A DNA stretch of 64,000 bases, from positions 434,001 through 498,000 of the forward strand of contig JAYJMM010000097.1 in the NCBI GenBank assembly GCA_037349105.1. Direction: 5' to 3'. The notes below the pieces were generated by a model. That model made no database searches. It saw only the letters and a list, made by a program, of their open reading frames with translations, and was not told the origin of the DNA. The DNA is from Limnomonas spitsbergensis (Eukaryota > Chlorophyta > Chlorophyceae > Chlamydomonadales). How positions within the stretch are numbered: the first letter of the stretch is position 1; every line of letters starts with the position of its first letter. Positions 2,897 through 63,445 of the stretch are shown here, piece after piece. Made by a program: the position numbers and the translations under genes.

Positions 2897-3379
2897 GAAA
2901 CTCATGTACTGGCGTACTGACACTCATGTACTGGCGTACTGGCACTCATGTACTGGCGTACTGGCACTCATGTACTGGCGTACTGGCACTCATGTACTGG
3001 CGCACTGGCACTCATGTACTGGCGTACTGGCACTCATGTACTGGCGTACTGGCACTCATGTACTGGCGTACTGGCACTCATGTACTGGCGTACTGGCACT
3101 CATGTACTGGCGTACTGGCACTCATGTACTGGCGTACTGGCACTCATGTACTGGCGTACTGGCACTCATGTACTGGCATACTGGCACTCATGTACTGGCG
3201 TACTGGCACTCATGTACTGGCGTACTGGCACTCATGTACTGGCGTACTGGCACTCATGTACTGGCGTACTGGCACTCATGTACTGGCGTACTGGCACTCA
3301 TGTACTGGCGTACTGGCACTCATGTACTGGCGTACTGGCACTCATGTACTGGCGTACTGGCACTCATGTACTGGCACTC
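2897..3379 (+). repeat. 22-bp minisatellite, about 22 copies
   Basis: Near-perfect tandem units (ACTCATGTACTGGCGTACTG plus GC), with only a few substitutions. The unit is 22 bp and lacks stops on the plus strand, so all three plus frames stay open and give artificial ORFs. It lies inside the large first intron of the ankyrin gene. Confidence 0.95.
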
Positions 3380-13939: not shown

Positions 13940-16900
13940 CTAGTCATCATGGTCACGATCTCGCTCGGTTGCAGGCCTGCGTCGCCGGCAGTCTGTGTCG
14001 TGGTCTAAGCTCGAGTCATCATGGTCACGATCTCGCTCGGTTGCAGGCCTGCGTCGCCGGCAGTCTGTGTCGTGGTCTAAGCTCGAGTCATCATGGTCAC
14101 GATCTCGCTCGGTTGCAGGCCTTCGGCGCCGGCGGTCCTCGTCGTAGCCCAGGCCTGAGTCATCACGGCCTCGACCTCCAGCTCTAGCTTGGTGCCCTCC
14201 GTCGTGCTCAGCCACATCCCAGGCCTCCGAGTCGGAATTCAATTTGGCCTTGCGATGGTGCCGGCCGCCTTCTTCCTCGCGTTGGCCGTACCGCCTGCAG
14301 CACTCATCACCGCCGTCCCGCTGCGGCCTGCTGTCGGAAGAGTCACGCCGGCTGCGGGAGCTCCGCCCTGCGCCGACTTCCGAGTAGTCTTCTCGACGCC
14401 CTGTTGGCCTGCCCCGTCCGCCCACCCTGTCCCGAAACCGGCTCCTCCCCTCTGCTGGGGTGTCTCCCTCACCATCATCCTTGTCAAGACCTCGACCACG
14501 CCGCTCGGGGCGAAGCGGGCTTGCTTCGTACCGCTCCTCGAACCGCTGTTGCCCCTGCCGATCACGCCCGTCAACGCCTCCCTCCCGTTTCCTCGCGCCT
14601 TCTTCATCGTAAGGGTCGTCGCGCTGACCTCTCCGCCTGTCTGCATCGCCCCCCCACCTGCCAGCTCCAGTGGAGTCCATCCCCGCCACTGGAGTCCATC
14701 CCACCCCAGTGGTGGGGAGGGACGGGGCGGAGAGATTCCCTCCCTCCCCCGTCCGTTGGGGAGGGACGACGGGTTCATCGTCAACGATAAGCTCCCCCTC
14801 CTCTGCATCATGGTGAACGCGCGTCGCCCTTCGGCCACGTTCGCTCTCACGGCCGCCTGAGACGACCGCTGGCGCAGCAGGCTGGTGGGGTCGCTGTGCC
14901 GACGCCTGCTGCCCCACATGGCAGGGCGACATACCGCTCTGTTTGCGCCGTTCGATGATTGCTCGACAAGCTTCCGACACGACACACATAGCCCCCTCAC
15001 CTCGGCGATCCCCCTCCCTAGACTTCTGTCGGTCATGCTGTCGAGCGGCACCCATCCGGACAGCATCCGCTGCTCTGTCAGATGACGAGGCCTTGGCTGC
15101 TGGAGCTGCAGGCTGCATGTGGGGAGCGGATGGCGGAACATCAGGCGCCGTTTTTGCCTTGACCACCGCTTCCTGCGGTGGTGCCCGTTGCGACGGCAGC
15201 GGCGGCGGCTGCGATAGCGGTGCCCGTTGCGACTGCAGCGGCGGCGGCTGCGATAGCAGTGGCTGTTGCGGCGGCAGCGGCGGCGGCTGCGATAGCGGTG
15301 GCTGCTGCGACGGCAGCGGCGGCGGCTGCGATAGCGGTGGCTGCTGCGACGGCAGCGGCGGCGGCTGCGATAGCGGTGGCTGCTGCGACGGTAGTGGCGG
15401 AGGCTGCGATTGCGGCGGTGGCTGCGAAGGCAGCGGCGGCGGCGGCGGCGGGGGCATCCTTCCTGCTGATTGGCCAGCCGCCGCCGCAGAAGCCAAGGTC
15501 GCCGTCATGGCAGATGCAGAAGGCGGCAAGCCGGGAAAGACCTTGGGTGGCAGTTTGACCAGCTTGCCCTTCACCTCCGCATCCCGCAGGGAAACCGTCA
15601 TGGCTCTGCCGGGACCGGGCTGGGAGGGGCGGACCGGCGCGGGCGCTAGTTCCGAGACAGCCGGCGGGCACGACTTACCCGGGAAGGAGCCTCCCGGCGG
15701 CAGCTCGGAGCGGAGGTCCGCAGCATCAACCGGGAGCGTGTCCGGGGCTGGCGAAGAGGAGGATGCAGTCTTGGAAATAAGCAGGGCACCTGCCGCCGCC
15801 GCCGCAGCTGCCGCAACAGCAGCAGTAAGGCTTTGCTGTTGCTGCTGCTGCCTCTGCTGTTCCCGCAGCTCCTCTCTCTGCTGCGGATCAGCAGACGCTG
15901 CCGTTTTCAAACGCTTGGTCACAGGCTGCAGCAAGGCGGCGTCGGCGGTTGCGGCAGTTGCTACAGCTGCGGCGGGTGAAGCGGTTGAGGCGGGGGCCTC
16001 CGGCTCTGAACCCTGTGCGGCCAGCTGTCGCTTGTGCACCGACGGCACTGCTTTCAGACGTTTGGCGGAATGGTGGGAGGCGTCCTGAGCAGAGGCAGTG
16101 GCAGTCGCGTCCAGCGTTTGGACCCGACGCTTCTCGGGCTGAAGGCCGCGGCCCTGCTTCATGAAGCCCTGAGGATCAGCAGAATGCCTCGAGGCGGGGT
16201 CCCCTGGAGATCCTCCTCCCGCACCCGCAGTCCCCAAGGAGGCGCAATCCACACCTCCAGCTCGCGCATGCTCCGACGGTTTTCCACCTGCCCGTGCATG
16301 CTCCGAGGACTTTGCACCGGAGCCTCCCCCCGCCCCCGCCTCCCCTCTCGCCGCTCCTCCCATTCCCTCCTCCCTTCTGGATCCTCCCACGCCTCCCGCA
16401 TGCCCTGGCTGTCTTGCAGCCGACCCCCCCGCTCCGGCATCCCCTCGTGAAACTCCCCATGCCTCCTCTGAACACTTTCTCGCGCCCGCTGCGCTATCCC
16501 TGGCCAAGCACGCTCCTGCTCCGCCTTCCATAGCGTCCCTTCCCTTCCCAGCCTCCGCTCCAGGGCTCACTCCTCTCGCTCCTGCGCCTGCTTCAGAAGC
16601 TGATGTTGCCGATCCGCGGTGCGATGGGGAAGCAGACGGCGGCGGCAGCGGTCCAGCCGCTGCTGCTGCTGCTGCAGTAGCAGCTGTTGTTCTTTCACTG
16701 ATCAAGTCAGAAAGAGGCAGCGGTGGTGCTGGGGCTGCTGCTGCTGCTGCTGTTGTCTCCGCTCCTGGGCGGTGCGAGTGGGCTGGTGGTGGTGGTGGTG
16801 GTGTTGCGGCCGTTGCGGACGCAGCTGCTGGTAGACGGTGGGAGTGTGAGGAGGGTGCAGCCACTGCCCCTCCAACCGGCAGTCGTTGCCGGTGGCTAGA

Positions 16901-17371
16901 AGGCGCCGCAGCCGCTGCTGCGAGCGGGCGGTGGCTGTGGGCGGACGGGGCGGATTGAGCAAGCTTCTGCTGCTGCGCCGCACTGTGCCCCTCTGCTGAC
17001 GCCGCCTGTTGCTGTTGTTGCTCCTGTTGCTGCTGTTGCTGCTGCATCTGTTGTTGCTGCTTCTGTTGTTGCTGCTGTTGCTGTTGTTGTTGCTGCTGCT
17101 GCTTCGGCGCAACCTCCATGGGCGTGACCCGCGTCGCTCCCTGCTCGCCTCTTCGCAGCAGCGAGAGCAAGGTGTCCGTACTGCCACCGCCGTGCCGTGC
17201 CGCCCGGCTGTACGCCTCTGCCGGGGGGCGGTACAGAGTGCCGTTGTCCGCGGTGTGGCGCAACAGGTGCACCCAGGGGCGGGAGCCGCTGGCCAGAAGC
17301 GTGCGCACGTTGCAGATGACCCACAGGGATTGACGGGCGCGAGTGAGGGCCACGTTCAGACGTCGCACGTC
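13940..17371 (-). CDS. SEN1: SEN1-like exon 35: motif VI and long low-complexity C-terminal tail
   Basis: The exon starts after a CACCGTAG acceptor with DVRRLNVALTRARQSLWVIC (motif VI with the Arg finger region), then about 40 conserved residues. The remaining roughly 1,080 residues are low complexity: poly-Gln coded at about 17030-17105, Ala/Ser/Pro-rich blocks, Pro repeats (SQPPPLPSQQPPL type) coded at 15190-15470, and an Arg/Asp/Glu-rich end. The tail is open and long enough to be coding, but its repeats mean that length may vary between strains. The stop is a TAG inside the last 66-bp repeat. Confidence 0.88.
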   Translation of the reverse strand, partial: DVRRLNVALTRARQSLWVICNVRTLLASGSRPWVHLLRHTADNGTLYRPPAEAYSRAARHGGGSTDTLLSLLRRGEQGATRVTPMEVAPKQQQQQQQQQQQQQKQQQQMQQQQQQQEQQQQQAASAEGHSAAQQQKLAQSAPSAHSHRPLAAAAAAPSSHRQRLPVGGAVAAPSSHSHRLPAAASATAATPPPPPPAHSHRPGAETTAAAAAAPAPPLPLSDLISERTTAATAAAAAAAGPLPPPSASPSHRGSATSASEAGAGARGVSPGAEAGKGRDAMEGGAGACLARDSAAGARKCSEEAWGVSRGDAGAGGSAARQPGHAGGVGGSRREEGMGGAARGEAGAGGGSGAKSSEHARAGGKPSEHARAGGVDCASLGTAGAGGGSPGDPASRHSADPQGFMKQGRGLQPEKRRVQTLDATATASAQDASHHSAKRLKAVPSVHKRQLAAQGSEPEAPASTASPAAAVATAATADAALLQPVTKRLKTAASADPQQREELREQQRQQQQQQSLTAAVAAAAAAAAGALLISKTASSSSPAPDTLPVDAADLRSELPPGGSFPGKSCPPAVSELAPAPVRPSQPGPGRAMTVSLRDAEVKGKLVKLPPKVFPGLPPSASAMTATLASAAAAGQSAGRMPPPPPPPLPSQPPPQSQPPPLPSQQPPLSQPPPLPSQQPPLSQPPPLPSQQPPLSQPPPLPPQQPLLSQPPPLQSQRAPLSQPPPLPSQRAPPQEAVVKAKTAPDVPPSAPHMQPAAPAAKASSSDRAADAVRMGAARQHDRQKSREGDRRGEGAMCVVSEACRAIIERRKQSGMSPCHVGQQASAQRPHQPAAPAVVSGGRESERGRRATRVHHDAEEGELIVDDEPVVPPQRTGEGGNLSAPSLPTTGVGWTPVAGMDSTGAGRWGGDADRRRGQRDDPYDEEGARKREGGVDGRDRQGQQRFEERYEASPLRPERRGRGLDKDDGEGDTPAEGRSRFRDRVGGRGRPTGRREDYSEVGAGRSSRSRRDSSDSRPQRDGGDECCRRYGQREEEGGRHHRKAKLNSDSEAWDVAEHDGGHQARAGGRGRDDSGLGYDEDRRRRRPATERDRDHDDSSLDHDTDCRRRRPATERDRDHDDSSLDHDTDCRRRRPATERDRDHDD

Positions 17372-20300
17372 CTACGGTGTAGGTTCGGTTCAAAGTTGAA
17401 GGTTCAGGGTAGAAGGTGCAGGGTGGAAGGTGCAGGGTGGAAGGTTTTGTTGCCGATGAATTCGGTTTACGGAAGTTGCCAGTAGATAACTTTGTTCGTA
17501 TGGGTAAACTGGTACCGGAAAAGGGTTTCTAAAACGGCATTTTTTTTTGTGTGTGTACCGGTACCGTTATGGTTAAGACTTCAAAATTCAGATTAACGTT
17601 TTTAGGTTTATTAGGCATCTTAGGTTAATTACCGTACGTTTATCAATCAGGTTTATTAGGTAAATTCGGCTTTATATAAAGATCAGAGTTGTTCATGTTA
17701 GGATAAGAAAAGGCAAGTGTGGGTATCAGGGTCAATATTGAAAGGTTTGTTAGGGTAAGCCTAACGCTTCGAGTTAAATTGTACTGCAAGTGTGGGAGTT
17801 CACACCCTCCACGTCAGACATCCTTTGGGATGGGGCCTAGGGTTCAGAGTTCACACCACACCCTTCACACCCTTCACACATCCTGCGCGAGGTGGCCGCA
17901 GAAAGGCAGAGGGAGAGCCCACCTGCCGTAACCTCCACCCCCACCCCCACCCCCACCCCCACCCCCACCCCCACCCCCACCCCAGTCCCATCCCATCCCA
18001 TCCCATCCCATCCCATCCCATCCCATCCCATCCCATCCCATCCCCATCCCCATCCCCATCCCCATCCCCATCCCCATCCCCAACCCCAACCCCAACCCCA
18101 GCCCCAGCCCCAGCCCCAGCCCCAGCCCCCAACCCCAACCCCAACCCCAACCCCAACCCAGACCCAGACCCAGACCCAGACCCAGACCCAGACCCAGACC
18201 CAGACCCAGACCCAGACCCCAGCCCAGCCCAGCCCAGCCCAGCCCAGCCCAGACCCAACCTCAGTCCCAGCCCAGCCCAGGAAAGTCGACACAGGAAAGT
18301 CGACACATGCATCCATAGGCAACCATTCCTCCCGCGTTGACGTTTCCGAATTCGAATTCAAAACACATATTTCGTTGTGCTCCCCATTTCTCCACGCTTA
18401 CCAGCCGGACGCCAACGGAGTATGCTATCTGCCCCCTTCACACCTGTGTGCAAGCTAAAACTCCACACATCCACACTTCCCCACACCTTTAATTACGTTC
18501 ACTCTTCCCACAAAATGGCCAGCAAGAAGCCGATGGAATATCTACTCCAGCTGCCTCCGCCCCCGTGAGCAAGTCGTTTTCCACACATCCACACTCCCAA
18601 ACAAGTCACACTTCCCCCACACTTGCCTGCAGGAAGCCGATGGAAGGTCTAATCCGGCTGCCTCCACCCCCAAGAGCAAATCGATTTCTACACATCCACA
18701 CTCCCAAACAATTCACACTTACCCCAACAATTGCCTGCAGGAAGCCGATGGAAGGTCTGCCCCAGCTGCCTCCGCCCCCATGAGCGAATTCAATTCCACA
18801 CATCCACACTCCCAAAAAATCACACTTCCCCCCACACTTGCCTGCAGGAAGCCGATAGAGGGTCTTCTCCGGCCGCCTCCGCACCCATGAGCGAATTCAA
18901 TTCCACACATCCACACTCTCAAACAATTCACACTTCCCCCCCCCACACTTGCCTGCAGGAAGCAGATGGAGGGTCTACTCCGGCCGCCTCCGCCCCCATG
19001 AGCAAATTCAAATCCACACATCCACACTCCCAAAAATCACACTTCCCCCCACACTTGCCTGCAGGAAGCCGATGGAGGGTCTTCTCCGGCTGCCTCCGCC
19101 CTCATGAGCAAATTCAATTCCACACATCCACAATTCCAGACAATTCACACTTCCCCCCCCCCACACTTGCCTGCAGGAAGCCTATGGAGGGTCTACTCCG
19201 GCCGCCTCTGCCCCCAAGAGCGAATCGAATTCTACACATCCACACTCCCAAACAATTCACACTTCCCCTCCACACTTGCCTGCAGGAAGCCGATGGAGGG
19301 TCTACTACGGCTGCCTCCGCCCTCATGAGCAAATTCAATTCCACACATCCACAATTCCAGAAAATTCACACTTCCCCCCCCTACACACTTGCCTGCAGGA
19401 AGCCAATGGAGGGTCTACTCCGGCCGCCTCTGCCCCCAAGAGCGAATCGAATTCTACACATCCACACTCCCAAACAATTCACACTTCCCCTCCACACTTG
19501 CTTGCAGGAAGCAGATGGAGGTTCTACTCCGGCCGCCTCCGCCCCCGTGAGCAAATCGAATTCCATACAGCCACACTTCTAAATAGTTCACACTTCCCCT
19601 CCACACTTGCCTGCAGGAAGCCGATGGAGGGTCTACTACGGCTGCCTCCGCCCCCGTGAGCGAATTCAGCATGAGCTCTCACAGCCGAGAATATAACCAC
19701 ATCAGCTTCGCGACCCTGCAAGCATATTGGGGATATGATCATATCTGGCAGTATTAGGGCCCTATCATTACCCTATCCACACTAAGGAAACAATGTCCGT
19801 GCATGTGTGTGTGTGGTGGTGGGGGGCAAATGAGTGTGTATGTGTGTGAATGTGACTGTGACTGTTTGAGTGTGACTTTGAGTGTGGGTATGGGTAGGTG
19901 GTTGCGTATTCAGCAGTCTGAGGACCCAATCCACAGTAAAAAGTAATATGTGTGTGTGTGTGGGTGTGGGCGTGTGTGTGTGGGTGTGGGCGTGTGTGTG
20001 TGGGTGTGTGTGGGTGTGGGTGCGGTTATGCTTGTGTGAGGAGAGGGTGTTGCATATTGCATTGAGCGTGGAAGTGCACCCCCTGTCTCCTTCCCTGACC
20101 CTCCCACTGACTTCCCACGCCCCTGTCGCCTCCTCACCCCTCTCACCCCCCCTCCCACTCAACCGCTGCTGCCGACCCCCCAACCTCTCAACCGTCGCTG
20201 TTCATCCTCCCCCCTGTCACCATATACCCACCCACAGTCTGGAATTGCACCTACTACAGCCCCACTCCCCCACCACCCCTACACACACCTGTCACTACCC

Positions 20301-62300: not shown

Positions 62301-63013
62301 TGCATACAATGTTATTGTTGCTCTGGATTCAGACCAGTATTGGCATGTTGCTTTGAACCACACTGCGATGATGAATTAGGCTACAGGTGAAGCCTGTGCA
62401 GTCTCTGCAGCACAGCTCCTGCAGTATAGTTCCAGCTCTCCGGGGGTTTGAGCTACAGGTCAAGCCTGTGCAGTTCCTGCAGTGCACTTTATGCAATACG
62501 CAGGTGCTAGTACCCCCCGGTTGCCTCCCTCCCCAGCCCTTTCGCCCCCCCCCCCCCCCCATTCCTTATCTAACCCAGCCTTATCTCACATTGAACAGCT
62601 TCAGCACTGAGACCGAAGCACCCCAGACGGCGTCGCGCGGCTGCTGGTGCCCCCATGTTAACGCCCCCTCCCCCCTTCCCCATCAGCCATATCCGATAAC
62701 TCACACTCAGCAGCTTCAACACTGTGACCAAAGCCACCCAGACAGCATCACCTGGCTGCTGGTGCTCCCCCCCCTCCCCTCCCCCCCCTTCACTCATCCC
62801 CCCTCAGCCACATCTCACATTAAACAGCTTCAACACTGTGACCAAAGCGCCCCAGACAGCATCGCGGGGCTGCTGGTGTCCCCCTGGCACCGCGCCATCC
62901 ACTCCCCCTTGGCTCATCTCCTCCAGCCACATGGTCAGCACCAGGTCCAGCCTGCATCCAATGACCTCCTCCCAGCTGCTGAAGGCCCCCAGCTCCTGAA
63001 CCACAGCAAACAT
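13940..63013 (-). CDS. SEN1: SEN1/senataxin-type SF1B helicase gene, 35 visible coding exons (5' end off window)
   Basis: Joining 35 exons gives 3,974 codons with every intron phase compatible. Helicase motifs in order: FNPSQLAAINAAV (Q, residues about 2242-2254), GPPGTGKT (Walker A, 2265-2272), LICAQSNAAVDE (Ia, 2374-2385), VIDEAAQ (II, DEAA 2587-2590), GDPQQLPPTV (III, 2614-2623), QYRMHP (IV, 2655-2660), VDGYQGRE (V, across exons 33/34) and RRLNVALTRAR (VI, 2834-2844). This set is that of Sen1/senataxin and plant MAA3 relatives. These nuclear 5'-3' helicases resolve R-loops and act in transcription termination. Residues 1 to about 1000 are Leu-rich helical segments that probably match the Sen1 N-terminal region. 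Long low-complexity inserts lie at 883-1938 and 2850-3974. Exons total 11.9 kb in 49 kb. Some small exons may be missed, for example between 49428 and 48809. Confidence 0.93.
13941..14145 (-). repeat. 66-bp in-frame repeat at the C terminus, three copies
   Basis: Each 66-bp unit encodes 22 residues (SSLDHDTDCRRRRPATERDR plus DHDD shared at the junction). The last unit is cut by the stop: a TCG Ser codon in the other copies is TAG here. The sequence beyond the stop still resembles the repeat. Confidence 0.85.
15190..15470 (-). repeat. Pro-rich coding minisatellite (about 42 bp)
   Basis: Several near-identical units encode alternating SQPPPLPSQQPPL blocks within exon 35. The opposite strand reads as Gly/Cys/Asp or Ala/Val runs, which are shadows. 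Confidence 0.85.
17372..17930 (-). other. Intron 34, unique distal part
   Basis: AT-richer sequence next to the exon 35 acceptor, with short GGTTCAGGGT/GGTGCAGGGT repeats at 17385-17445. No coding signal. Confidence 0.4.
17931..18290. repeat. Compound chain of 5-6-bp repeats
   Basis: Successive blocks follow one another without gaps: CCCCAC, then CCATC, CCCCAT, CCCCAA, CCCCAG, CCCCAA, CCCAGA and CCCAG. Each differs from its neighbour by one base or one base length. The sense (minus) strand is G-rich. Frames through it are artefacts. Confidence 0.93.
18510..19610 (-). repeat. Echo array of the exon 34 tail with GC-type 5' splice site (about 117 bp x about 10)
   Basis: Each unit on the minus strand repeats the last part of exon 34 (GAATTCGCTCA, a Gly-rich stretch, then ATCGGCTTCCTGCAG) followed by the donor GCAAGTGTGG. 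Copy edges fall near 18526, 18632, 18742, 18846, 18958, 19064, 19178, 19284, 19395 and 19505. Exon 34 itself ends at 19611. Nearly all copies keep the GCAAGT donor. Confidence 0.9.
19611..19715 (-). CDS. SEN1: SEN1-like exon 34: second half of motif V
   Basis: Thirty-five codons, phase 0. GREADVVIFSAVRA completes the motif V begun as VDGYQ in exon 33; SIGFLQ then joins DVRRLNV of exon 35, the usual spacing in Sen1 proteins. The donor is GC (CTGCAG/GCAAGT), one of the rare GC-AG introns here. A Gly/Ser/Arg-rich insert separates VRA from SIGFLQ. Confidence 0.92.
19716..20334 (-). other. Intron 33 with GT-rich microsatellite
   Basis: It contains GTGTGTGGGTGTGGGC-type repeats at 19800-20035 and a C-rich tract at 20080-20330. 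No coding signal. Confidence 0.6.
20335..20483 (-). CDS. SEN1: SEN1-like exon 33: motif IVa region and start of motif V
   Basis: The exon is 149 nt and joins in phase 1 to exon 32 (CGA G / GC CTC). It encodes GLKAMYPAFCGTVAVLSPYR, then RVHFQTVDGYQ. VAVLSPYRAQ and the TVDGYQ end are standard for the second RecA-like domain of Sen1/UPF1-type helicases. Donor GTGACA. Confidence 0.95.
20598..20845 (-). CDS. SEN1: SEN1-like exon 32: helicase domain 2 start
   Basis: The exon is 248 nt. Its first base completes the Arg codon split from exon 31, giving HPDISRFPSAFFYGGQLTDS, the expected continuation of motif IV. A Gly/Ala-rich loop follows, then NWEEATLAAEMYRG. Donor GTGAAG. Confidence 0.95.
20846..22159 (-). 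repeat. Intron 31: CCA/CCATC minisatellite and heptamer tracts
   Basis: A 42-45-bp unit of CCATCCATCCACCACCACC type repeats four to five times at 21000-21240. Degenerate GGGTTTA/CCCTAAA heptamers in both orientations fill 21470-21860 and 22060-22140. A worn copy of the exon 31 tail (CAGTACCGCATG) lies at about 22010-22060. Confidence 0.75.
22160..22323 (-). CDS. SEN1: SEN1-like exon 31: motifs III and IV
   Basis: Starts VILVGDPQQLPPTVLSNAVA (motif III) and ends LKEQYRMHPDIS (motif IV), with phase 2 at the donor GTGCGC. Every catalytic residue expected in these motifs is present. Confidence 0.97.
22330..22475. repeat. 21-bp minisatellite, about 7 copies, abutting the exon 31 acceptor
   Basis: Units of GCATGGAGGGGGCAGGTGGG plus C. 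On the minus strand they give a C-rich pyrimidine tract directly upstream of the CTCCAG acceptor. It may have grown out of the acceptor region. Confidence 0.9.
22620..23225. repeat. 22-bp degenerate array (GGTTTGGCCAGGGTTTAACC type)
   Basis: About 27 units alternate GGCCAGAGTTT, GGCCAGGGTTT and AACCAGGGTTT. On the sense strand the unit reads CCCTGGCCAAACC. No coding value. Confidence 0.9.
23226..23690. other. Intron 30 unique island with GTTCGTTTTT motifs
   Basis: A lower-GC island with repeated GTTCGTTTTT(G/C)TC words at 23440-23610. It partly matches, in inverted orientation, the island at 40040-40480. It may be an old dispersed element. Confidence 0.4.
23695..24062 (-). repeat. Echo array of the exon 30 tail and 5' splice site (137 bp)
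   Basis: Downstream of exon 30 the last 30-odd exon bases (ATGCAGCTGCTGAGTCCTGG, AGCCAAG) plus donor GTGTGAAA recur at about 23800-23835 and 23925-23960. Intervening sequence is conserved, giving 137-bp units. Confidence 0.9.
24063..24218 (-). CDS. SEN1: SEN1-like exon 30: motif II
   Basis: Fifty-two codons, phase 0. VCTLSAAGGEL is followed by PRFDALVIDEAAQALEPATL. DEAA is the Walker B/motif II that coordinates Mg and activates water for ATP hydrolysis. The exon ends LLSPGAK at donor GTGTGA. Confidence 0.96.
24219..24920 (-). repeat. Intron 29: exon 30 start copies and heptamer tracts
   Basis: Copies of the exon 30 start (GTGCACGCTGTCTGC..GGGGAGCTGGTG with a TGTAGG acceptor) are seen near 24425-24465, with diverged ones near 24310-24350. 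GGGTTTA heptamers lie at 24600-24660, 24735-24760 and 24805-24830. A C/A-rich tract is at 24840-24870. Confidence 0.65.
24921..25052 (-). CDS. SEN1: SEN1-like exon 29: helical insert before motif II
   Basis: Forty-four codons, phase 0: a charged, coiled-coil-like helix (EVERQKKELRQAVVMAAEIT). It leads directly into VCTLS of exon 30, as in the Sen1 stalk region where a helix precedes the conserved C(T/S)TLS strand. Acceptor CTCAG, donor GTGAGG. Confidence 0.9.
25440..26595. repeat. About 46-bp minisatellite in intron 28, about 25 copies
   Basis: The unit contains CACCCTGATGCAACACCGGA and TGTACTGTGTTGCAA. The sense strand reads TTGCATCAGGGTGTTGCAAC, similar to the bases just after the exon 28 donor (GGGTGTTGCAATGCAG), so the array probably arose from that junction. 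Frames of up to 379 codons through it are artefacts. Confidence 0.92.
26614..26778 (-). CDS. SEN1: SEN1-like exon 28: charged linker of the stalk region
   Basis: Fifty-five codons, phase 0: EQKRLRQEEQEEQEQRRRRD, then a Gly/Ala stretch, then GQIRTPAEMQ. Position between motifs Ia and II fits the variable part of the Sen1 stalk. Acceptor AACGCAG, donor GTGATG. Confidence 0.85.
26779..27626 (-). repeat. Intron 27: two degraded copies of the exon 28 start region
   Basis: A stretch of about 230 bp that includes the exon 28 acceptor and start (GGAACGCAGGAGCAGAAGCG) recurs near 26960-27030, with a more worn third copy near 27190-27260. Shared words are ATGCCGGRCACCCACC and GTGAATTCATTT. Heptamers fill 27480-27570. 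Confidence 0.7.
27627..27845 (-). CDS. SEN1: SEN1-like exon 27: post-Ia domain
   Basis: Seventy-three codons, phase 0, joined to exon 26 to read SNAAVDEIVQRLLRDGVWG. TPAIVRLGRADAAL matches the conserved (L/I)VRxG strand of the Sen1 family. Then come helices HVDAIARMRLS and LVADAAKANLEELKL. Acceptor CATCAG, donor GTAAGG. Confidence 0.95.
27890..28165 (-). repeat. Two copies of the exon 27 start with 3' splice site
   Basis: ATTGTCCAGCG(A/G)CT.CTG..GGCGTGTGGGGC behind a GTCAG or ATCAG acceptor recurs at about 27930-27996 and 28085-28155. Each unit is followed by GGGTT heptamers. The copies extend about 70 nt into the exon sequence. Confidence 0.9.
28195..28858 (-). repeat. Echo array of the exon 26 tail (motif Ia) and 5' splice site, about 5 copies
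   Basis: Units of about 115-175 bp repeat the end of exon 26 with donor (CAGTCCAATGCGGCTGTGGA then GAG/GTGCGCTTGTGTGT). Copies lie near 28215-28275, 28360-28425, 28535-28600 and 28705-28780. All encode a recognisable CAQSNAAVDE-like peptide in some frame. Confidence 0.9.
28859..29221 (-). CDS. SEN1: SEN1-like exon 26: Walker A and motif Ia
   Basis: 121 codons, phase 0. It starts exactly at GPPGTGKTTAIIGIASVLLA (Walker A: Lys and Thr bind ATP phosphate and Mg) and ends RVLICAQSNAAVDE (motif Ia, nucleic-acid contact). Between them is a roughly 60-residue Ala/Gln/Arg-rich insert, as in other Sen1 proteins. Acceptor CCCCCAG, donor GTGCGC. Confidence 0.97.
29222..29678 (-). repeat. Intron 25: pure GGGTTCA heptamers and a CA tract
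   Basis: 29238-29405 is almost perfect (GGGTTCA)n with a few GGGGTTC and GGGCTCA variants. 29540-29678 is CA/CCCA-rich. A short copy of the exon 25 tail (CCGCTAGCACTAGT) lies at about 29495-29515. Confidence 0.9.
29679..29927 (-). CDS. SEN1: SEN1-like exon 25: Q motif
   Basis: 83 codons, phase 0. After LATLPDVALRKLLLNP and an Ala-rich loop comes AAKFNPSQLAAINAAV, the Q motif that reads adenine, then PLALVQ abutting GPPGTGKT of exon 26. This is the classic Sen1/UPF1 arrangement. Confidence 0.96.
29928..30613 (-). repeat. Intron 24: heptamers, 42-bp higher-order repeat and exon 24 tail copies
   Basis: GGGTTAAGGG/GGGACTAGGG heptamer derivatives form about five 42-bp units at 30140-30350. Two copies of the exon 24 tail with donor (CTGCACTCGCTGT..CACACTTC..TTTCAGGTTATG and a worn relative) lie at 30520-30570 and 30440-30485. 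Confidence 0.8.
30614..30727 (-). CDS. SEN1: SEN1-like exon 24
   Basis: 38 codons, phase 0: VRLYPQISGPKFEEVLIVRS then TQLHSLVTHFREFQ. It corresponds to the strand-helix stretch just before the Q motif where Sen1 proteins read ...SLTTIxREYxAL. Acceptor CCCTAG, donor GTCGGG. Confidence 0.88.
30728..31977 (-). repeat. Intron 23: 33-bp CAGGGACCAGGG array, unique island, pyrimidine tract
   Basis: 30880-31150 holds about six units of GGTTAGTAGTCAGGGACCAG type. 31260-31760 is non-repetitive without coding signal, with a short duplicated phrase GAGACAGCCCCCCTGCATCG at 31641 and 31731. 31790-31975 is C/T-rich. Confidence 0.75.
31978..32115 (-). CDS. SEN1: SEN1-like exon 23: domain 1B strand region
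   Basis: 46 codons, phase 0: VRKDDLVLLTRRA .. IRCLALVTEAD .. GIRTFK. The (D)DLVLL..CLA(L)V pattern is the beta-barrel segment of Sen1/UPF1 helicases. Acceptor ATGCAG, donor GTGAGT. Confidence 0.92.
32120..33965. repeat. About 21-bp minisatellite, about 90 copies
   Basis: Units of GGGGAGTGGGGAGGAGTGCAT type with 20-22-bp length variation, filling almost all of intron 22. The sense strand is ATGCACTCCTCCCCACTCCC. It starts right at the exon 23 acceptor (CATGCAG). Minus-strand frames of over 600 codons (Met-His-Pro-Ser-Pro) are by-products. Confidence 0.95.
34020..34140 (-). repeat. Copy of the exon 22 tail and donor
   Basis: A copy of the exon tail (GCAGCGCAA..GAGCCGAG/GTGA in the exon) is present near 34035-34085 as AGCAGCGCAACCGCTGTGAT then ACCGAG/GTGAAG. 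It is one echo only. Confidence 0.7.
34141..34233 (-). CDS. SEN1: SEN1-like exon 22
   Basis: 31 codons, phase 0: ELDMSTPPPPVPL, a Gln/Thr run, RKRLDVTGAE. A low-complexity linker within the region before the helicase core; support comes from splice sites and phase rather than conservation. Acceptor CTGCAG, donor GTGAGG. Confidence 0.75.
34234..35054 (-). repeat. Intron 21: GCAGTACACCTCACTC array and a Pro/Asp-like duplication
   Basis: About ten 30-36-bp units with AGCAGTACACCTCACTC lie at 34300-34710. Two to four worn 65-bp units (CTTGGACGCC..CCCCCTTTCCTA) lie at 34770-34990. One copy of the exon 21 tail lies at 35005-35045 (CTGGGCGTAG variant with GTGGGCCATGTGG). Confidence 0.75.
35055..35193 (-). 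CDS. SEN1: SEN1-like exon 21
   Basis: 139 nt; the first base completes the Lys codon from exon 20, giving VFKRLLLTELRASV, the family's F.PLLL.E helix. It continues LVSFEVKVVNMNRVDDVQ. Acceptor TTAAAG, donor GTGGGC. Confidence 0.92.
35194..35847 (-). repeat. Intron 20: GGCTAGATCTGACCGA array
   Basis: Eight or nine 18-20-bp units at 35240-35395, then degenerate CCTCAAACC words to 35640 and unique sequence. A short direct repeat CTGACATGTAG is at 35795-35815. No exon is seen. Confidence 0.7.
35848..35971 (-). CDS. SEN1: SEN1-like exon 20
   Basis: 124 nt, in phase 1 from exon 19 and phase 2 to exon 21. A Gly-rich linker (about 20 residues) is followed by SIPTSFANIEEYTRVFK, matching the Sen1 P.SF.N..EY...F motif that opens the conserved region. 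Donor is AA/GTGGGT. Confidence 0.92.
35972..36437 (-). repeat. Intron 19: copies of both flanking exon edges
   Basis: The exon 20 start (CAGGCCTGGCTGG behind GTTGCAG) recurs at about 36060-36095 and, worn, at 36160-36190. The exon 19 tail with GTGGGTGAGG-like donor recurs at about 36230-36250 and 36325-36350. Heptamers lie at 36260-36310. Confidence 0.85.
36438..36560 (-). CDS. SEN1: SEN1-like exon 19
   Basis: 123 nt, phase 1 at both ends: EPVVVARPCLRMEDVQREVL then QWEYMELLNTSGALPL. The helix pattern is like the stretch upstream of the SF.N..EY motif. Acceptor GTGCAG, donor G/GTGAGT. Confidence 0.88.
36590..36925 (-). repeat. Five copies of the exon 19 start with 3' splice site
   Basis: GCAGAGCCGGTTGTTGCGGC (with variants) behind TGTGCAG, TTTGCAG or GGCAGAG acceptors recurs near 36618-36660, 36705-36745, 36780-36800, 36832-36865 and 36897-36930. 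They are separated by GGGTTTA heptamers. Confidence 0.9.
36930..37573 (-). other. Intron 18 distal part: imperfect duplication and pyrimidine tract
   Basis: Two imperfect copies of about 190 bp (AGGGAACC(G/A)GC(G/A)ACCC then a T/C-rich tract) at 37190-37330 and 37355-37560. The T/C-rich bases are on the plus strand. No coding signal. Confidence 0.55.
37574..38766 (-). CDS. SEN1: SEN1-like exon 18: large low-complexity region
   Basis: 1,193 nt (about 397 residues), phases 2 and 1. It starts RTASKRPPSRKLQREKLAAV, has an acidic SHEEDDIWAMRD, then Ala/Pro/Gly/Ser-rich sequence, the island DEMSLKDRMVSLYNRAV, VKFVLNEDAGLFEAME and a short Gln run. Probably disordered, with short binding motifs. Acceptor CCCGCAG, donor GTGGGG. 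Confidence 0.88.
38810..39335. repeat. 30-34-bp minisatellite next to the exon 18 acceptor, about 17 copies
   Basis: Units of TGTGCAGTTACTAATACCTT plus TGTATGG(AA/CG). Two subtypes are segregated: GTGTGACGTG types at 38830-39070 and GTATGGAATG types at 39070-39310. It is not a copy of exon 18. Confidence 0.92.
39336..40593 (-). other. Intron 17 unique AT-richer island
   Basis: About 1.25 kb of low-GC sequence with no coding signal. 40040-40480 carries many CGAACAAACGAAC/AAAAACGAAC words related in inverted orientation to 23380-23650. It may be an old mobile element insertion. Confidence 0.45.
40594..41288 (-). CDS. SEN1: SEN1-like exon 17: disordered region
   Basis: 695 nt, phase 0 in and phase 2 out. 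GDQASPSSATRLRQLDLASS, then Gln/Pro-rich sequence with ALEWWQRPLDELLADSAGGG, a Gln run, a Pro/Ser repeat and TLSKLKHRVLVV. Acceptor GTGTCAG, donor GTACAA. Confidence 0.85.
41340..41450. repeat. 14-bp array (ATCATGTATCTATC type)
   Basis: Seven short units inside intron 16, followed by unique AT-rich sequence to about 41750. Confidence 0.85.
41840..43687 (-). repeat. 48-bp x about 38 array, each unit carrying a consensus 5' splice site
   Basis: The array starts at the exon 16 donor. On the minus strand each unit contains GGTGCTG/GTGAGTGGTGG, identical or nearly so to the real junction (GGCGCTG/GTGAGTGGTGG), then GGGGCATTGTGGTGATT. The 48-bp length keeps plus-strand frames open for over 700 codons, an artefact. 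Confidence 0.96.
43688..44965 (-). CDS. SEN1: SEN1-like exon 16: large region with poly-Gln
   Basis: 1,278 nt (426 codons), phase 0. It starts LALSTARTIMDPGSQLSQPL, then low complexity, the island KPFVIDLDGGDSDELPVWLM (a SUMO-interaction-like VIDLDG plus acidic run), AKWFGLEQL, a roughly 60-residue Gln tract, and GVIDLSQAEDSNSDGDG (a second such motif). It ends KSKNDPARVAL. The SUMO idea is inference from motif shape only. Confidence 0.88.
44966..45313 (-). repeat. Intron 15: donor-containing copies of the exon 15 end
   Basis: Units of about 60 bp at 45070-45310 contain GCAGGTATCACA or GCAGGTGTTGCAC, matching the exon 15 end GAGCAG/GTATGGCAC, followed by an A/G-rich stretch and CATATT(A/G)GGAGGGG. 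About three echoes. Confidence 0.8.
45314..45385 (-). CDS. SEN1: SEN1-like exon 15
   Basis: 24 codons, phase 0: VSEQWMESVELLLELGRELG then GLEQ, an amphipathic helix of HEAT type. Acceptor GTGCAG, donor GTATGG. Confidence 0.8.
45400..45985. repeat. GTGTGATCACAAGGG array
   Basis: About 18 degenerate 30-35-bp units alternate GTGTGATCACA, GTGTGACC and AGGGAGGACAA words. Most carry the palindrome TGATCA. No exon similarity found. Confidence 0.85.
46050..46999 (-). repeat. Echo array of the exon 14 tail and 5' splice site, about 7 copies
   Basis: Copies of GCCTGCGCTGCTGTC..GGGG..GTCCCCCTGGAGCG/GTGGGTTA (exon 14 end plus donor) lie near 46780-46840, 46650-46700, 46345-46400, 46205-46265 and 46060-46130. 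Copies further from the exon are more changed. A unit of about 200 bp is shared among the nearest copies. Confidence 0.88.
47000..47469 (-). CDS. SEN1: SEN1-like exon 14
   Basis: 470 nt, phase 1 in and 0 out: VIRANKSHELIIWTTNDAAP, then AMVRLRLLAPLVQLMIELLE, NICTVIDIRAFTKT, and GLLALLRVLPAAICFEVFED. A run of Leu-rich helices fits the Sen1 N-terminal helical domain. Two Ala runs are coded by GCG/GCC repeats. Confidence 0.87.
47470..48729 (-). repeat. Intron 13: CA tract, unique island and 15-bp array
   Basis: CACACACTCACAC-rich at 47485-47760. A unique low-GC island lies at 47760-48050. The 15-bp ATCCAAATACTGTAC array has about 16 copies at 48058-48285. 48295-48345 matches the sequence at 59150-59205. 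Heptamers lie at 48660-48725. Confidence 0.8.
48730..48808 (-). CDS. SEN1: SEN1-like exon 13
   Basis: 79 nt: ALDHPQLAQLLRTFHQLLQL then QQAVSAG, a helix; phase 0 in, phase 1 out to exon 14 (donor GTGAGA). An internal GCT/GTAAGC is a competing donor that would break the phase to exon 14. Confidence 0.78.
48809..49428 (-). repeat. Intron 12: CAGCTACAAAT array, possible missed exon
   Basis: Degenerate 10-11-bp units (TACAAATCAGC / ATTCAACTACA) fill 48830-49010 and 49050-49300. A copy of the exon 13 start (TTGCGCAGGCGCTGAACTG) lies at 48975-48993. The minus-strand peptide ASITDEQVLTAAVMYPQDVA at 49120-49190 looks coding, but no phase-consistent splice pair was found. Confidence 0.6.
49429..49494 (-). 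CDS. SEN1: SEN1-like exon 12
   Basis: 22 codons, phase 0: VLYQRLPFMMHHAAQGRRAP then DL. Acceptor CCCAAG, donor GTATCA. Short, and supported mainly by frame continuity. Confidence 0.6.
49714..49803 (-). CDS. SEN1: SEN1-like exon 11
   Basis: 30 codons, phase 0: ALLPVPQLLEQLVRAFELGV then LEVRKRGLDQ, a strong amphipathic helix. Acceptor CTTCAG, donor GTGAGA. Confidence 0.82.
49804..50556 (-). repeat. Intron 10: copies of the exon 11 start and the exon 10 tail
   Basis: The exon 11 start (CAGGCGCTTCTGCCAGTT) recurs at about 49865-49885, 49930-49955, 50065-50080 and 50140-50155. The exon 10 tail with donor (CGGCAGCAGGGGGATGTGAT then ATTG/GTGAG) recurs at about 50205-50265, 50325-50395 and 50440-50505. 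Confidence 0.9.
50557..50886 (-). CDS. SEN1: SEN1-like exon 10
   Basis: 110 codons, phase 0: ACLVRARTAGHVLGTSVAQL, a Gln-rich loop, ARIECGALHSVLRLMLGVDP, EAAVAAVAAQLRHAERPAGS, ending RQQGDVIS. Helical-repeat character. Acceptor GTAGAG, donor GTGAGT. Confidence 0.85.
50887..51115 (-). other. Intron 9, heptamer-rich
   Basis: GGGTTTAGGGTTAAGGGT at 50938-50960 and CCCTAAACCCTAAACC in the opposite orientation at 51040-51070. Confidence 0.7.
51116..51201 (-). CDS. SEN1: SEN1-like exon 9
   Basis: 86 nt, phase 1 in and 0 out: KMRPAEHFLQLRRGGEALLD then VC. The 5' edge (GCGCAG acceptor) is the one that fits phase; an alternative CAACAG acceptor meets a stop. Confidence 0.65.
51202..51569 (-). other. 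Intron 8
   Basis: CCTAAACCTGAACCCC-type degenerate heptamers at 51240-51320 and GGTTTAGGGC at 51475-51490. The rest is unique without coding signal. Confidence 0.5.
51570..52027 (-). CDS. SEN1: SEN1-like exon 8
   Basis: 458 nt, completing an Arg codon from exon 7: RLCPAYYQWLGANSTSNPMV, AATLLAAAAHLSAAYPLGLD, a Gly-rich insert, then LPAEVKQTLSWQFLVAGWEE and YPRVLLGLLRGAAG. The LC..Y..WLG phrase resembles one in the Sen1 N-terminal domain. Acceptor ACCTCAG, donor GTCAGT. Confidence 0.9.
52028..52709 (-). repeat. Echo array of the exon 7 tail and 5' splice site, about 4 copies
   Basis: GAGATATCGTTTGATAATGC then GGACGCGTTCAG/GTGGGGG (exon 7 tail plus donor) recurs at about 52620-52685, 52525-52570, 52427-52465 and 52312-52345, separated by A/G-rich (sense strand) spacers. 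All keep CAG/GTGGG. Confidence 0.93.
52710..52906 (-). CDS. SEN1: SEN1-like exon 7
   Basis: 197 nt, phase 0 in, phase 2 out: VDATVLACLLEPWRQKQDRL, then ALLMCPDAVLGRVDEEMDRG, CEISFDNADAF. It joins exon 8 as DAFRLCPAYYQWLG. Acceptor CTGCCAG, donor GTGGGG. Confidence 0.88.
52930..53990 (-). repeat. About nine copies of the exon 7 start with 3' splice site
   Basis: TACTGCCAG/GTGGATGCCACC (acceptor plus exon start, then GTGCTGGCCTG(T/C)CTGC) recurs near 52945, 53030, 53110, 53225, 53290, 53370, 53475, 53590 and 53960 in 70-130-bp units with GGGTTTA heptamers between. A 60-bp GGTACAGGGTA subarray fills 53710-53940. Confidence 0.93.
54050..54477 (-). repeat. Copies of the exon 6 tail; heptamers
   Basis: A copy of the exon 6 tail (TGCTGCCGTCATATGTGATG TGTTGAG/GGCGAGAGGG) lies at 54375-54425. 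More worn copies are near 54310-54345 and 54050-54080. TGACTGGAAGGGTT units lie at 54105-54260. Confidence 0.75.
54478..54561 (-). CDS. SEN1: SEN1-like exon 6
   Basis: 28 codons, phase 0: AISPYAAVATNAAEMQTGAA then AVICAVLR. Acceptor CTGTCAG, donor GTGAGA. Confidence 0.72.
54690..55775. repeat. 51-bp minisatellite, about 20 copies
   Basis: Units contain GGGTGTGGAGTGGTGTGAA, GCAAGGCTGCATGGGAGCAT and ACAGTGGACAG. The length is a multiple of three, so frames of up to 383 codons arise on both strands; they are artefacts. Confidence 0.95.
55776..56274 (-). other. Intron 5: G-rich tract and unique stretch
   Basis: GGGGGTGTGG-type G-rich sequence at 55775-55990, then unique sequence at 56000-56230. 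No coding signal. Confidence 0.5.
56275..56379 (-). repeat. Two copies of the exon 5 tail and 5' splice site
   Basis: CACATGTGGGGCCTGCCAGC, TTGCCAG/GTGCGCC or /GTGAACC: 45-51-bp units immediately after exon 5, so three competing CAG/GT donors stand in a row. Confidence 0.9.
56380..56532 (-). CDS. SEN1: SEN1-like exon 5
   Basis: 51 codons if the first donor (CAG/GTGCGC) is used; phase 0. VHIKGAAGRVSQSDVTRTYA, AATSYRAVRLALQRGYPSGF, then ACHMWGLPACQ. The last 15 residues belong to the repeated unit, so the true end may differ. Confidence 0.7.
56540..57030 (-). repeat. GGGTTTAGGG..TTTCAGGGTAGCATATG array and one exon 5 start copy
   Basis: About ten 40-50-bp units of heptamers plus AGGGTAGCATATGCGGG at 56560-56960. 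Then a copy of the exon 5 start (CAGGTGCACATCAAGGGTTT, with GTCTTCCAGTCGGATGTGAC) lies at 56965-57025. Confidence 0.88.
57180..57530 (-). repeat. Three copies of the exon 4 tail
   Basis: GAGG(T/C)GGCGCGTCAGCTACT then GAACGTCCTGTGCGCACAG and two relatives lie at 57185-57225, 57350-57390 and 57455-57500. They match the exon 4 tail AAGGAGGCGTGTCAGCTGCT.. CTGTATGCACAG. Confidence 0.85.
57590..58750 (-). repeat. 32-bp x about 36 array carrying CACACAG/GTAGGG
   Basis: On the minus strand each unit is GGTAGGGTATGAAGGCAGTA plus TGAAGGCACACA. It contains a 5'-splice-site consensus CACACAG/GTAGGG. The array abuts an exon 4 tail copy that ends CCTACACACAG/GTAGGGTATG at 58735-58765, so it grew from that duplicated junction. 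Frames of nearly 400 codons are artefacts. Confidence 0.95.
58745..58965 (-). repeat. Two further copies of the exon 4 tail
   Basis: GAGGCGTGTCAGCTTCTTAA then CATCCTACACACAG at 58740-58780 and GAGGCGTGTCAGCTGCTAAA CATCCTGTTTGTGCAG at 58910-58955. Confidence 0.88.
59097..59162. repeat. Perfect hairpin, 29-bp arms and 8-nt loop
   Basis: CCGGCCGTAGCACTGGGTAA CGTACCATC, loop CTGTGATA, then the exact reverse complement. The right arm continues into a segment shared with 48295-48345, so the hairpin joins two inverted ends of a dispersed element. It lies in intron 4, about 55 bases beyond the exon 4 donor. Confidence 0.95.
59218..59298 (-). CDS. SEN1: SEN1-like exon 4
   Basis: 27 codons, phase 0: AMLTSLLSSSVRREKEACQL then LNILYAQ, an amphipathic helix. 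Acceptor TCGCAG, donor GTGGGA. Confidence 0.8.
59299..60415 (-). repeat. Intron 3: exon 4 start copies, CACGTGTTAGGG array, exon 3 tail copies
   Basis: The exon 4 start (CAGGCCATG(C/T)TG followed by TCGCTGCTGAGCTTGTCCGT) recurs at 59370-59390, 59445-59460, 59505-59535 and 59575-59610. 59640-59870 is a 20-bp GTCCACGTGTTAGGGTT array. The exon 3 tail (GATGTGGCCAT.. then GTG(A)TGGTGAGGG) recurs at 60120-60190 and 60300-60345, with a donor-only copy at about 60225-60240. Confidence 0.85.
60416..60511 (-). CDS. SEN1: SEN1-like exon 3
   Basis: 32 codons, phase 0: DVPPEQLSDYLNAACQMADR then QDVAMELLKVME. Acceptor CCGCAG, donor GTGAGG. Confidence 0.82.
60512..61712 (-). repeat. Intron 2: exon-edge copies, purine-rich array and possible retroelement tail
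   Basis: An exon 3 start copy (GATGTGTCTTCCGAGCTGCT then CTTTGACTATTTGAATTCAG) lies at 60957-61003. 61090-61380 is an A/G-rich 15-20-bp degenerate array (GGGGCAAAACAGTGAACAG type). An exon 2 tail copy (GGCCCTGGGGCATGAGCTGT then GGCAGATCTTG/GTAGGTCGTG) lies at 61545-61590. The retroelement tail is listed separately. Confidence 0.8.
60800..60956 (+). mobile_element. Possible retroelement 3' tail ending in (AAC)n
   Basis: A non-repetitive block (CCCGACCCTTTCGGCTGGGG, then AAGTTGAGTTTCCTCCAT) ends in about five AAC units at 60941-60955, directly abutting the truncated exon 3 start copy. Short simple-repeat tails are common on algal non-LTR elements. No reverse transcriptase is present here. Confidence 0.35.
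61713..61901 (-). CDS. SEN1: SEN1-like exon 2
   Basis: 63 codons, phase 0: VGTLREAAQALPQLLPRVLE, then CLRLLITALGHELWQIL. Helical-repeat character of the Sen1 N-terminal domain. Acceptor CCTAG, donor GTAGGT. Confidence 0.87.
61902..62818 (-). repeat. Intron 1 (of this window): heptamers, exon 2 start copies, exon 1 tail copies
   Basis: GGGTTTA/GGGTTAAGGG heptamers fill 61915-62160. Short exon 2 start copies (GA(A/C)TGCACAGGCTT) lie at 62388-62418 and 62460-62490. The exon 1 tail with donor (CTGGTGGTCACAGTG-like, ending AAGCTGCTGAGTGTGAG) recurs at 62700-62765 and 62585-62655. Confidence 0.85.
62819..63013 (-). CDS. SEN1: SEN1-like exon 1 of the visible part
   Basis: 65 codons, phase 0: MFAVVQELGAFSSWEEVIGC, RLDLVLTMWLEEMSQGG, then DAVWGALVTVLKLFN. 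It begins with ATG right after a CTGTAG acceptor, so this Met is probably internal and the gene continues upstream beyond the window. Donor GTGAGA. Confidence 0.87.
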
Positions 63014-63445
63014 CTACAGGGGAAGGAGGAGGGAGGGGCATGAATTGAGGTATGTGGGTGTCAGTGCTAGTGCCAGGACAAGATCATCTCCCCCGGCCAC
63101 ATGGCAAGCATTGAGTCCAGCCTACAGCCAATGACCTCCTCCCAGCCCCTGAACCACGGCAAACATCTGGAAGGGGAAGGAGGGGGGAGGGGCATGTGGG
63201 TATCAGTACCAGGACAAGATCATCTCCCCCAGCCATATGGTCATCACCAGGTCCATCCTACAGCCAATGACCTCCGCCCAGCTCCTGAACAACGGCAAAC
63301 ATCTTGCAGAGGGAAGGAGGCACGTGGGTGTTAGTATTAAAACAGGATGGTCTCCCCCAGCCATATGTCAAGCACCAGGTCCAGCATGCACCAAATGACC
63401 TACTCCCAGCTGCTGAACCCATCCAGGCCGTGAAGCATGGCATGC
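63014..63445 (-). repeat. Three copies of the exon 1 start with 3' splice site
   Basis: CAGATGTTTGCCGTGGTTCA then GG(A/G)GCTGGG.GGAGGTCATTGG recurs at about 63095-63175, 63225-63308 and, worn, 63360-63445. Units are about 130 bp. Each covers about 80 nt of exon sequence with a 12-nt or longer deletion and interrupted reading frame. Confidence 0.9.

Follow-up and report, generated by a model that had tools for sequence, protein, structure and literature searches.

Tandem repeats laid over exon-intron boundaries were described in the Adh3 and globin genes of amphioxus as "mirages" (PMC3087553). In those genes each tandem unit combines a portion of an exon with the splice site and a portion of the intron; such units occur at donor and acceptor sides, and splicing is apparently normal in spite of the cryptic AG/GT signals. 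The units in BflGb6 are 81-100% identical, with AG/GT kept in many copies, and the phenomenon was described for a few lancelet genes, with units of 10-72 or 150-160 bp (PMC3087553). Duplication has also been connected with new introns: an intron of the potato RdRp gene was reported to have arisen by tandem duplication over an intron-exon boundary (PMC4974935), and duplication with proto-splice sites was proposed for some Drosophila introns (PMC2891723). Here, we analyzed a stretch of 64,000 nucleotides from the green alga Limnomonas spitsbergensis (contig JAYJMM010000097.1, positions 434,001 to 498,000 of the forward strand; hereafter the window). It carries a SEN1-like helicase gene in which exon edges recur, together with their splice sites, in the adjacent introns. 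These copies, called echoes below, are of the mirage kind.

Between about 30 and 13.9 kb, the minus strand carries the gene of a SEN1/senataxin-type helicase. The AAA_11 and AAA_12 domains were found exon by exon with Pfam, some single-exon matches lying below the curated cut-off. The best homolog, from Chlamydomonas sp. UWO 241, showed 57% identity over 58% of the query, and PDB chains of Sen1 appeared among the matches. The two domains and the SEN1 homologs place the gene in the SEN1/senataxin/MAGATAMA 3 group. Exons H1 to H10 were located by tblastn against homologs and by splice rules, and repeats were left out of the exon placement. The part fixed by homology comprises 10 exons with 19 edges and nine introns (10,771 bp in total), as follows.

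29679..29927, minus strand: exon H1, from homology; echo of the 5' splice site at 29480-29521, at a distance of about 188 bp, with GG in the copy opposite the donor GT
28859..29221, minus strand: exon H2 (Walker A, AAA_11), from Pfam; exon end copied four times within 28205-28750, over the 5' splice site in three of the copies
27846..28858, minus strand: intron H2-H3, 1,013 bp, almost fully spanned by two abutting mirage families, copies of the H2 donor (28928-28205) and then of the H3 acceptor (28205-27778), which meet at about 28205
27627..27845, minus strand: exon H3; echoed twice at the 3' splice site (27954-28010, 28109-28163) and once at the 5' splice site (27372-27397)
24921..25052, minus strand: exon H4; 14 nt of the 3' splice-site tract echoed (25104-25117), exon sequence not copied
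24063..24218, minus strand: exon H5 (DEAA motif); echoed once at the 3' splice site (24424-24464) and twice, with a unit of 133 bp, at the 5' splice site (23915-23974, 23782-23841)
22160..22323, minus strand: exon H6; partial 5'-side echo at 22010-22044, 28/33 identical, stopping short of the junction
20598..20845, minus strand: exon H7; neither side echoed, next intron 114 bp
20335..20483, minus strand: exon H8; 5' splice-site echo at 20213-20251
19611..19715, minus strand: exon H9, from homology, with a GC 5' splice site
18518..19546, minus strand: ten copies of the H9 end and its GC 5' splice site, 109-bp unit, GC in all
13943..17371, minus strand: last exon H10, open over 1,143 codons; no echo of its 3' splice site found

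Each exon edge, taken as 45 nt of exon plus 15 nt of intron, was aligned to the intron it borders, and alignments at about 260 randomly chosen positions of the window gave the scores for comparison. An outward copy in the adjacent intron scored above all random placements at 10 of the 19 edges. The copy spanned the junction at eight of them, namely the donors of H1, H2, H3, H5, H8, and H9 and the acceptors of H3 and H5, and did not cross it at the other two (the H4 acceptor and the donor side of H6). No echo was found in the adjacent intron for the remaining nine edges. At least one junction-spanning copy was present in seven of the nine helicase introns. The same test on exon interiors was positive in 1 of 19 cases (H9, an exon of just 105 nt). 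The eight spanning units, like pairs from chaperonin genes described below, combine exon, splice-site and intron sequence, as do the amphioxus units, and copies stand head to tail (109 bp repeated ten times at H9, 133 bp at H5, offsets of 153-170 bp at H2) at both kinds of boundary: six donors and two acceptors here, and both sides in the chaperonin genes.

Two further controls included the CCT genes of the same genome. The side of the copies was tested with 45-nt edges at a score of at least 30; exons shorter than 130 nt (including H9) were left out, and the outermost edges from the hidden Markov model (HMM), which are not known junctions, were taken in. Copies on the same side as their edge were found for 22 of 122 edges (SEN1 8/18, CCT 14/104), copies on the wrong side for none of the 122 (0/18 and 0/104), and copies of exon interiors for 2 of 122 (0/18 and 2/104). 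When exons were shuffled 50 times over SEN1 and CCT, a mean of 0.36 and a maximum of 2 matches were obtained, compared with 24 observed among 144. These results confirmed the edge echoes as genuine and as a strong feature of many genes in this genome. The original prediction had named a shuffled-exon control as the check that could overturn its claim of copied exon edges with splice sites, and the claim withstood it. Its statement that copies always lie on the side of their own edge agrees with the counts; the directed process that such a rule may suggest is not needed, because selection acts against enlarged exons.

The SEN1 copies diverged by 0-17% from the exon copy. The splice dinucleotide was covered in 21 of the 23 copies and was kept at 41 of 42 bases, while nearby positions were kept at 428 of 463; a selective purge of decoy splice sites was therefore rejected. 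Similarity fell weakly with distance among the ten copies of H9 (rho -0.67, P = 0.03), and no decay was seen among the four copies of H2. Decay with distance, which had been predicted as usual, was accordingly dropped as a general rule. The donor of intron H9-H10 is itself GC (CTGCAG followed by GCAAGT, window positions 19605-19611), with homology supporting both flanks.

The echoes extend beyond SEN1 to many of the genes examined in this genome. The first set consisted of 20 stretches with other AAA_12 helicase matches (the SF1 set), 19 of which gave 36 coding high-scoring segment pairs (HSPs); the stretch L026 gave none. A copy at p < 0.02 was present at 9 of 71 HSP edges (1.4 expected). SEN1 scored by the same method gave 5 of 14 edges, and the SF1 count is probably an underestimate because HSP ends were used instead of exon ends. 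With a wider query reaching outside the HSP, 16 of 70 edges had an edge-near repeat, several of them entirely beyond the HSP. L015 and L017 were clear mirages, with 57 and 56 nt of the coding HSP copied, and L028 was a weaker case with 42 nt. L016 and L017, two similar SF1-helicase loci, carry donor-side echoes, offset by 77 and 182 bp, at apparently equivalent exon ends.

The second set was the CCT/Cpn60 chaperonin family, in which 11 loci held 63 of the 72 matches and the other nine matches lay outside the loci. At p < 0.02, 34 of 120 edges were positive (2.4 of any kind expected), and 23 of them, spread over 8 of the 11 loci, copied at least 12 nt of HMM-matched coding sequence; the count of 23 keeps three rows scoring below 30 (L029 exon 3, L036 exon 1, and L036 exon 4 downstream). 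A recheck by self-BLAST recovered 17 of 22 at E 2e-5 or better, and L029 exon 3, L033 exon 4, L036 exons 1 and 5, and L037 exon 3 were weak (not recovered, or E of about 0.3). The downstream copy at L034 exon 4 overlaps the next exon in HMM coordinates, so it is doubtful and probably derives from the acceptor side of that exon. The 23 positives were divided into 17 acceptor-side and six donor-side cases. The exonic overlap was about 20-98 nt in most pairs, in accord with the predicted 15-80 copied bases, and the intronic part was aligned in many pairs, not in all. Offsets were mostly 102-164 bp; about half of the pairs abutted or overlapped, and about half had a gap between the aligned copies. 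A crossing copy, often a single old duplication, was present in 13 of 35 CCT introns, after 17 of 52 adjacent exon pairs had been dropped for an HMM gap of more than 16 positions or an intron below 50 bp. Coverage by Tandem Repeats Finder was 35% in the window, 20% on average in the SF1 stretches, and 12% in the CCT loci. The likely paralogous pairs L036/L037 and L038/L039 have echoes at some shared exons with similar offsets; such common echoes may date the duplications relative to the gene duplication. Tandem duplication across exon-intron junctions, as originally predicted for SEN1, is thus supported in many genes (the 23 CCT edges, L015, and L017).

We consider it likely that these mirage-type repeats were left by short local tandem duplication that is genome-wide and blind to position, and that was filtered by selection on exons. 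Short duplications would hit random sites, with edge offsets mostly of about 100-165 bp, and some would be amplified to arrays. Any duplication overlapping a junction would carry along a piece of the exon and a piece of the intron with the splice site between them. It would be tolerated as long as splicing keeps to the copy beside the exon, since all further copies then leave with the intron. Duplications within exons would mostly be purged by selection, and the conserved exon half would keep crossing events visible after equally old intronic duplications have faded. We infer this duplication mechanism, and likewise the use of the exon-adjacent copy in splicing, from the sequences. The abutting or overlapping copies at offsets of about 102-164 bp match the expectation for tandem duplication.

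The proposal was put in numbers with the probability that a segment of length u crosses a junction of an intron of length I, 2(u-1)/(I+u-1), with the exon-adjacent splice site kept in use. The ancestral intron length was taken as the intron minus its repeats, which is a rough proxy. Among the SEN1 introns, 7 of 15 repeat families crossed a junction, with 5.7 expected without junction preference (P = 0.29); the weaker donor-side echoes of H3 and H6 fell below the threshold and were missed in these family spans. A crossing duplication should stay visible up to about twice as long, because its exonic part diverges in one copy only. With this twofold persistence, 20 of 34 pooled and paralog-thinned families crossed compared with 18.0 expected (P = 0.28), and among units of at least 60 bp, 16 crossed compared with 12.8 expected (P = 0.09). 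In 18 CCT pairs the exonic 40 nt were more alike than the intronic 40 nt (identity 0.78 vs. 0.58, Wilcoxon P = 0.004), which fits the persistence argument. The coding arrays of H10 have units of 72 and 39 bp, both multiples of three, a weak point since there are two arrays only. In terms of length, the junction-crossing families spanned about 30% of the nine SEN1 introns and purely intronic ones about 34%, so that the prediction that introns grew mainly by junction duplication is not borne out by the data for SEN1; in the CCT introns (17,180 bp) crossing families did dominate, with 5,204 bp vs. 1,112 bp for the purely intronic ones.

Several results weigh against a process blind to position. 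In the 35 CCT introns, 15 of 21 families crossed a junction vs. 8.9 expected (P = 0.003), and without the persistence correction the pooled and thinned set also had an excess (13.6 expected, P = 0.009). CCT units of at least 60 bp crossed in 12 of 13 cases, compared with 6.7 expected without persistence (P = 0.001) and 8.6 with it (P = 0.026); after thinning of paralogs as well, 10 of 11 crossed vs. 7.2 (P = 0.053). Start positions at CCT junctions had a density of about 1.5 per kb (12 families over 70 junctions of about 115 bp each), roughly fourfold above the background of 0.34 per kb for families with units of 60-180 bp in 200 kb. Furthermore, the identity test leaves out 5 of the 23 matches, is biased because the matches were selected on exonic similarity, and takes the nearest AG/GT as the junction, wrongly in a few cases (L036 exon 4, L038, and L039). 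The exonic and intronic halves were alike in the eight SEN1 pairs (0.79 vs. 0.78). The excess among the longer CCT units and the raised density at their junctions are what would be expected if exon-intron borders were preferred sites of tandem duplications of about 100-165 bp; exon-placed nucleosomes, R-loops at GC-rich donors or stalled replication may be conjectured as causes, and in C. reinhardtii and V. carteri a survey reported tandem repeats to be enriched close to intron-exon junctions (PMC3887541). We nevertheless regard such a preference as rather unlikely to be the explanation: most of the excess was gone at twofold visibility in the pooled data, SEN1 had no clear excess, and few genes were sampled, with the paralog pairs L036/L037 and L038/L039 not independent. 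The stronger version, in which junctions are hotspots in this lineage with a preferred length of about 100-165 bp, affect a large share of edges, and leave the spliceosome to pick the exon-adjacent site among up to ten near-identical neighbors, is unlikely too; if true, introns would grow from their ends, outward from the exons, and nearest-neighbor intron definition could not explain splice-site choice. The simplest explanation that suffices is position-blind duplication combined with selection, to which a modest junction hotspot is possibly added.

The choice among the copied splice sites bears on the other explanations. The extra sites might be kept because they serve as alternative or regulatory sites (decoy, poison-exon, or recursive), for which one can point to the intact dinucleotides in SEN1 and to the first H2 decoy donor, whose use would give an in-frame insertion of 51 residues. 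Such a function is improbable, since an in-frame stop codon follows from 17 of the 18 SEN1 donor decoys (that of H8 being read from the homology-aligned frame), the 41 of 42 bases are not clearly above the 92% kept nearby, and copy number and unit vary between edges. If splicing went by intron definition, the innermost copies would be spliced and the true exons would be longer than assumed. This mode was argued for short volvocine introns in a Volvox study (PMC4378016), and we find it very hard to reconcile with SEN1, in which protein homology extends to the exon-adjacent copy, the conserved protein sequence stops at or near it, and the inner donors bring in the same stop codons. Use of the exon-adjacent site is the outcome expected from pairing of splice sites across the exon. 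An assembly artefact or collapsed haplotypes would be an explanation of a different kind; the likely source assembly was described as built mainly from PacBio continuous long reads (PMC11228838). We hold this to be the least probable of all, as the SEN1 copies differ from the exon copy by up to 17%, echoes occur on many contigs, and the wrong-side tests came out empty.

The serially repeated splice sites, that is, the H9 donor with its ten GC copies and the repeated acceptors, constitute a natural experiment on splice-site choice. Protein homology indicates the site expected to serve in each series; if splice sites pair across the exon, it would be the exon-adjacent copy, and if they pair across the intron, the innermost one. 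Intron definition has been argued for volvocine introns (PMC4378016), so this question can be decided with existing types of RNA data. Moreover, exon edges may preserve traces of an intron turnover that would otherwise be lost, because selection holds one half of a crossing duplication constant. Repeats with intact decoy sites could also cause errors in gene annotation.

Long open frames are present in the upstream half of the window (about 30-63 kb). A Pfam scan of three minus-strand frames over 43600-63401, with stops read as X, gave no relevant match and thus no SEN1 N-terminal domain there; the scan of 30-43.6 kb covered just one open frame. A concatenated N-terminal protein query found no homologs at E ≤ 0.001, and one single gene from 63.4 to 13.9 kb is therefore putative. 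Four repeat families near 63013, 52906, 50557, and 47000 resemble edge echoes, as judged by eye and alignment without a null test.

62900..63440, minus strand: N-terminal family, acceptor and exon start near 63013, copied near 63166 and 63302 and further on; by eye, without homology
52866..53529, minus strand: N-terminal family, acceptor and exon start at the 3' splice site 52907/52906 copied seven times upstream; putative exon without homology
50180..50660, minus strand: N-terminal family, exon end and donor 50557/50556 copied three times downstream, GT missing from the last copy; by eye, without homology
46080..47090, minus strand: N-terminal family, putative exon end and donor at about 47000, with repeated downstream copies; by eye, without homology

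Other repeats were also observed in the window. Tandem arrays lie inside H10 (39-bp unit, 15189-15447) and over its 3' end (72-bp unit, 13880-14137), the latter extending beyond the end of the open frame. Very long minisatellites are located at 2900-3375 (22 bp x 22), 32126-33994 (21 bp x 89), 41851-43691 (48 bp x 38), 54698-55765 (51 bp x 21), and 57615-58752 (32 bp x 36). Degenerate telomere-like arrays of the GGTTCAG, GTTTAGG, and AAGGGTT types occur at 29239-29400, 30001-30350, 30861-31230, 36265-36313, 56559-56969, and 59619-59884. Telomere-like motifs also stand beside matches in some other loci of the genome, and they may be seeds of repeat growth. An ankyrin-repeat open frame lies at 2101-2775 on the minus strand, outside the SEN1-like region.

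Introner elements are lineage-specific intron-related repeats in which one mobile sequence has been copied to many sites. The algal echoes are likewise lineage-specific and related to introns, and they differ in that each comes from the edge of its own exon. Intron gain through tandem duplication, as presented for potato RdRp and Drosophila, shares with them the boundary-crossing duplication or the duplicated proto-splice sites (PMC4974935, PMC2891723); there a new intron was created, whereas the algal copies stand within introns already present and add to their length. The survey of C. reinhardtii and V. carteri also concerns green algae, with tandem repeats commoner near intron-exon junctions (PMC3887541), and the repeats it describes appear to be motifs within introns, not copied exon sequence with splice sites. 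Literature searches on algal intron repeats led to this survey and to the genome report PMC11228838 and to no mirages, and one on C. priscuii found nothing. Among the open-licence PMC papers listed, mirages were found neither in algae nor at a large share of the exon edges of any genome. The original prediction had put the echoes forward as an undescribed system, a claim that gives way to the boundary-spanning tandem repeats already published from amphioxus (PMC3087553). Compared with the lancelet genes, the present case comes from a green alga, with 13 of 35 CCT introns and seven of nine SEN1 introns crossed and one donor array of ten copies. The echoes are therefore an unusually dense and phylogenetically distant case of the mirage kind.

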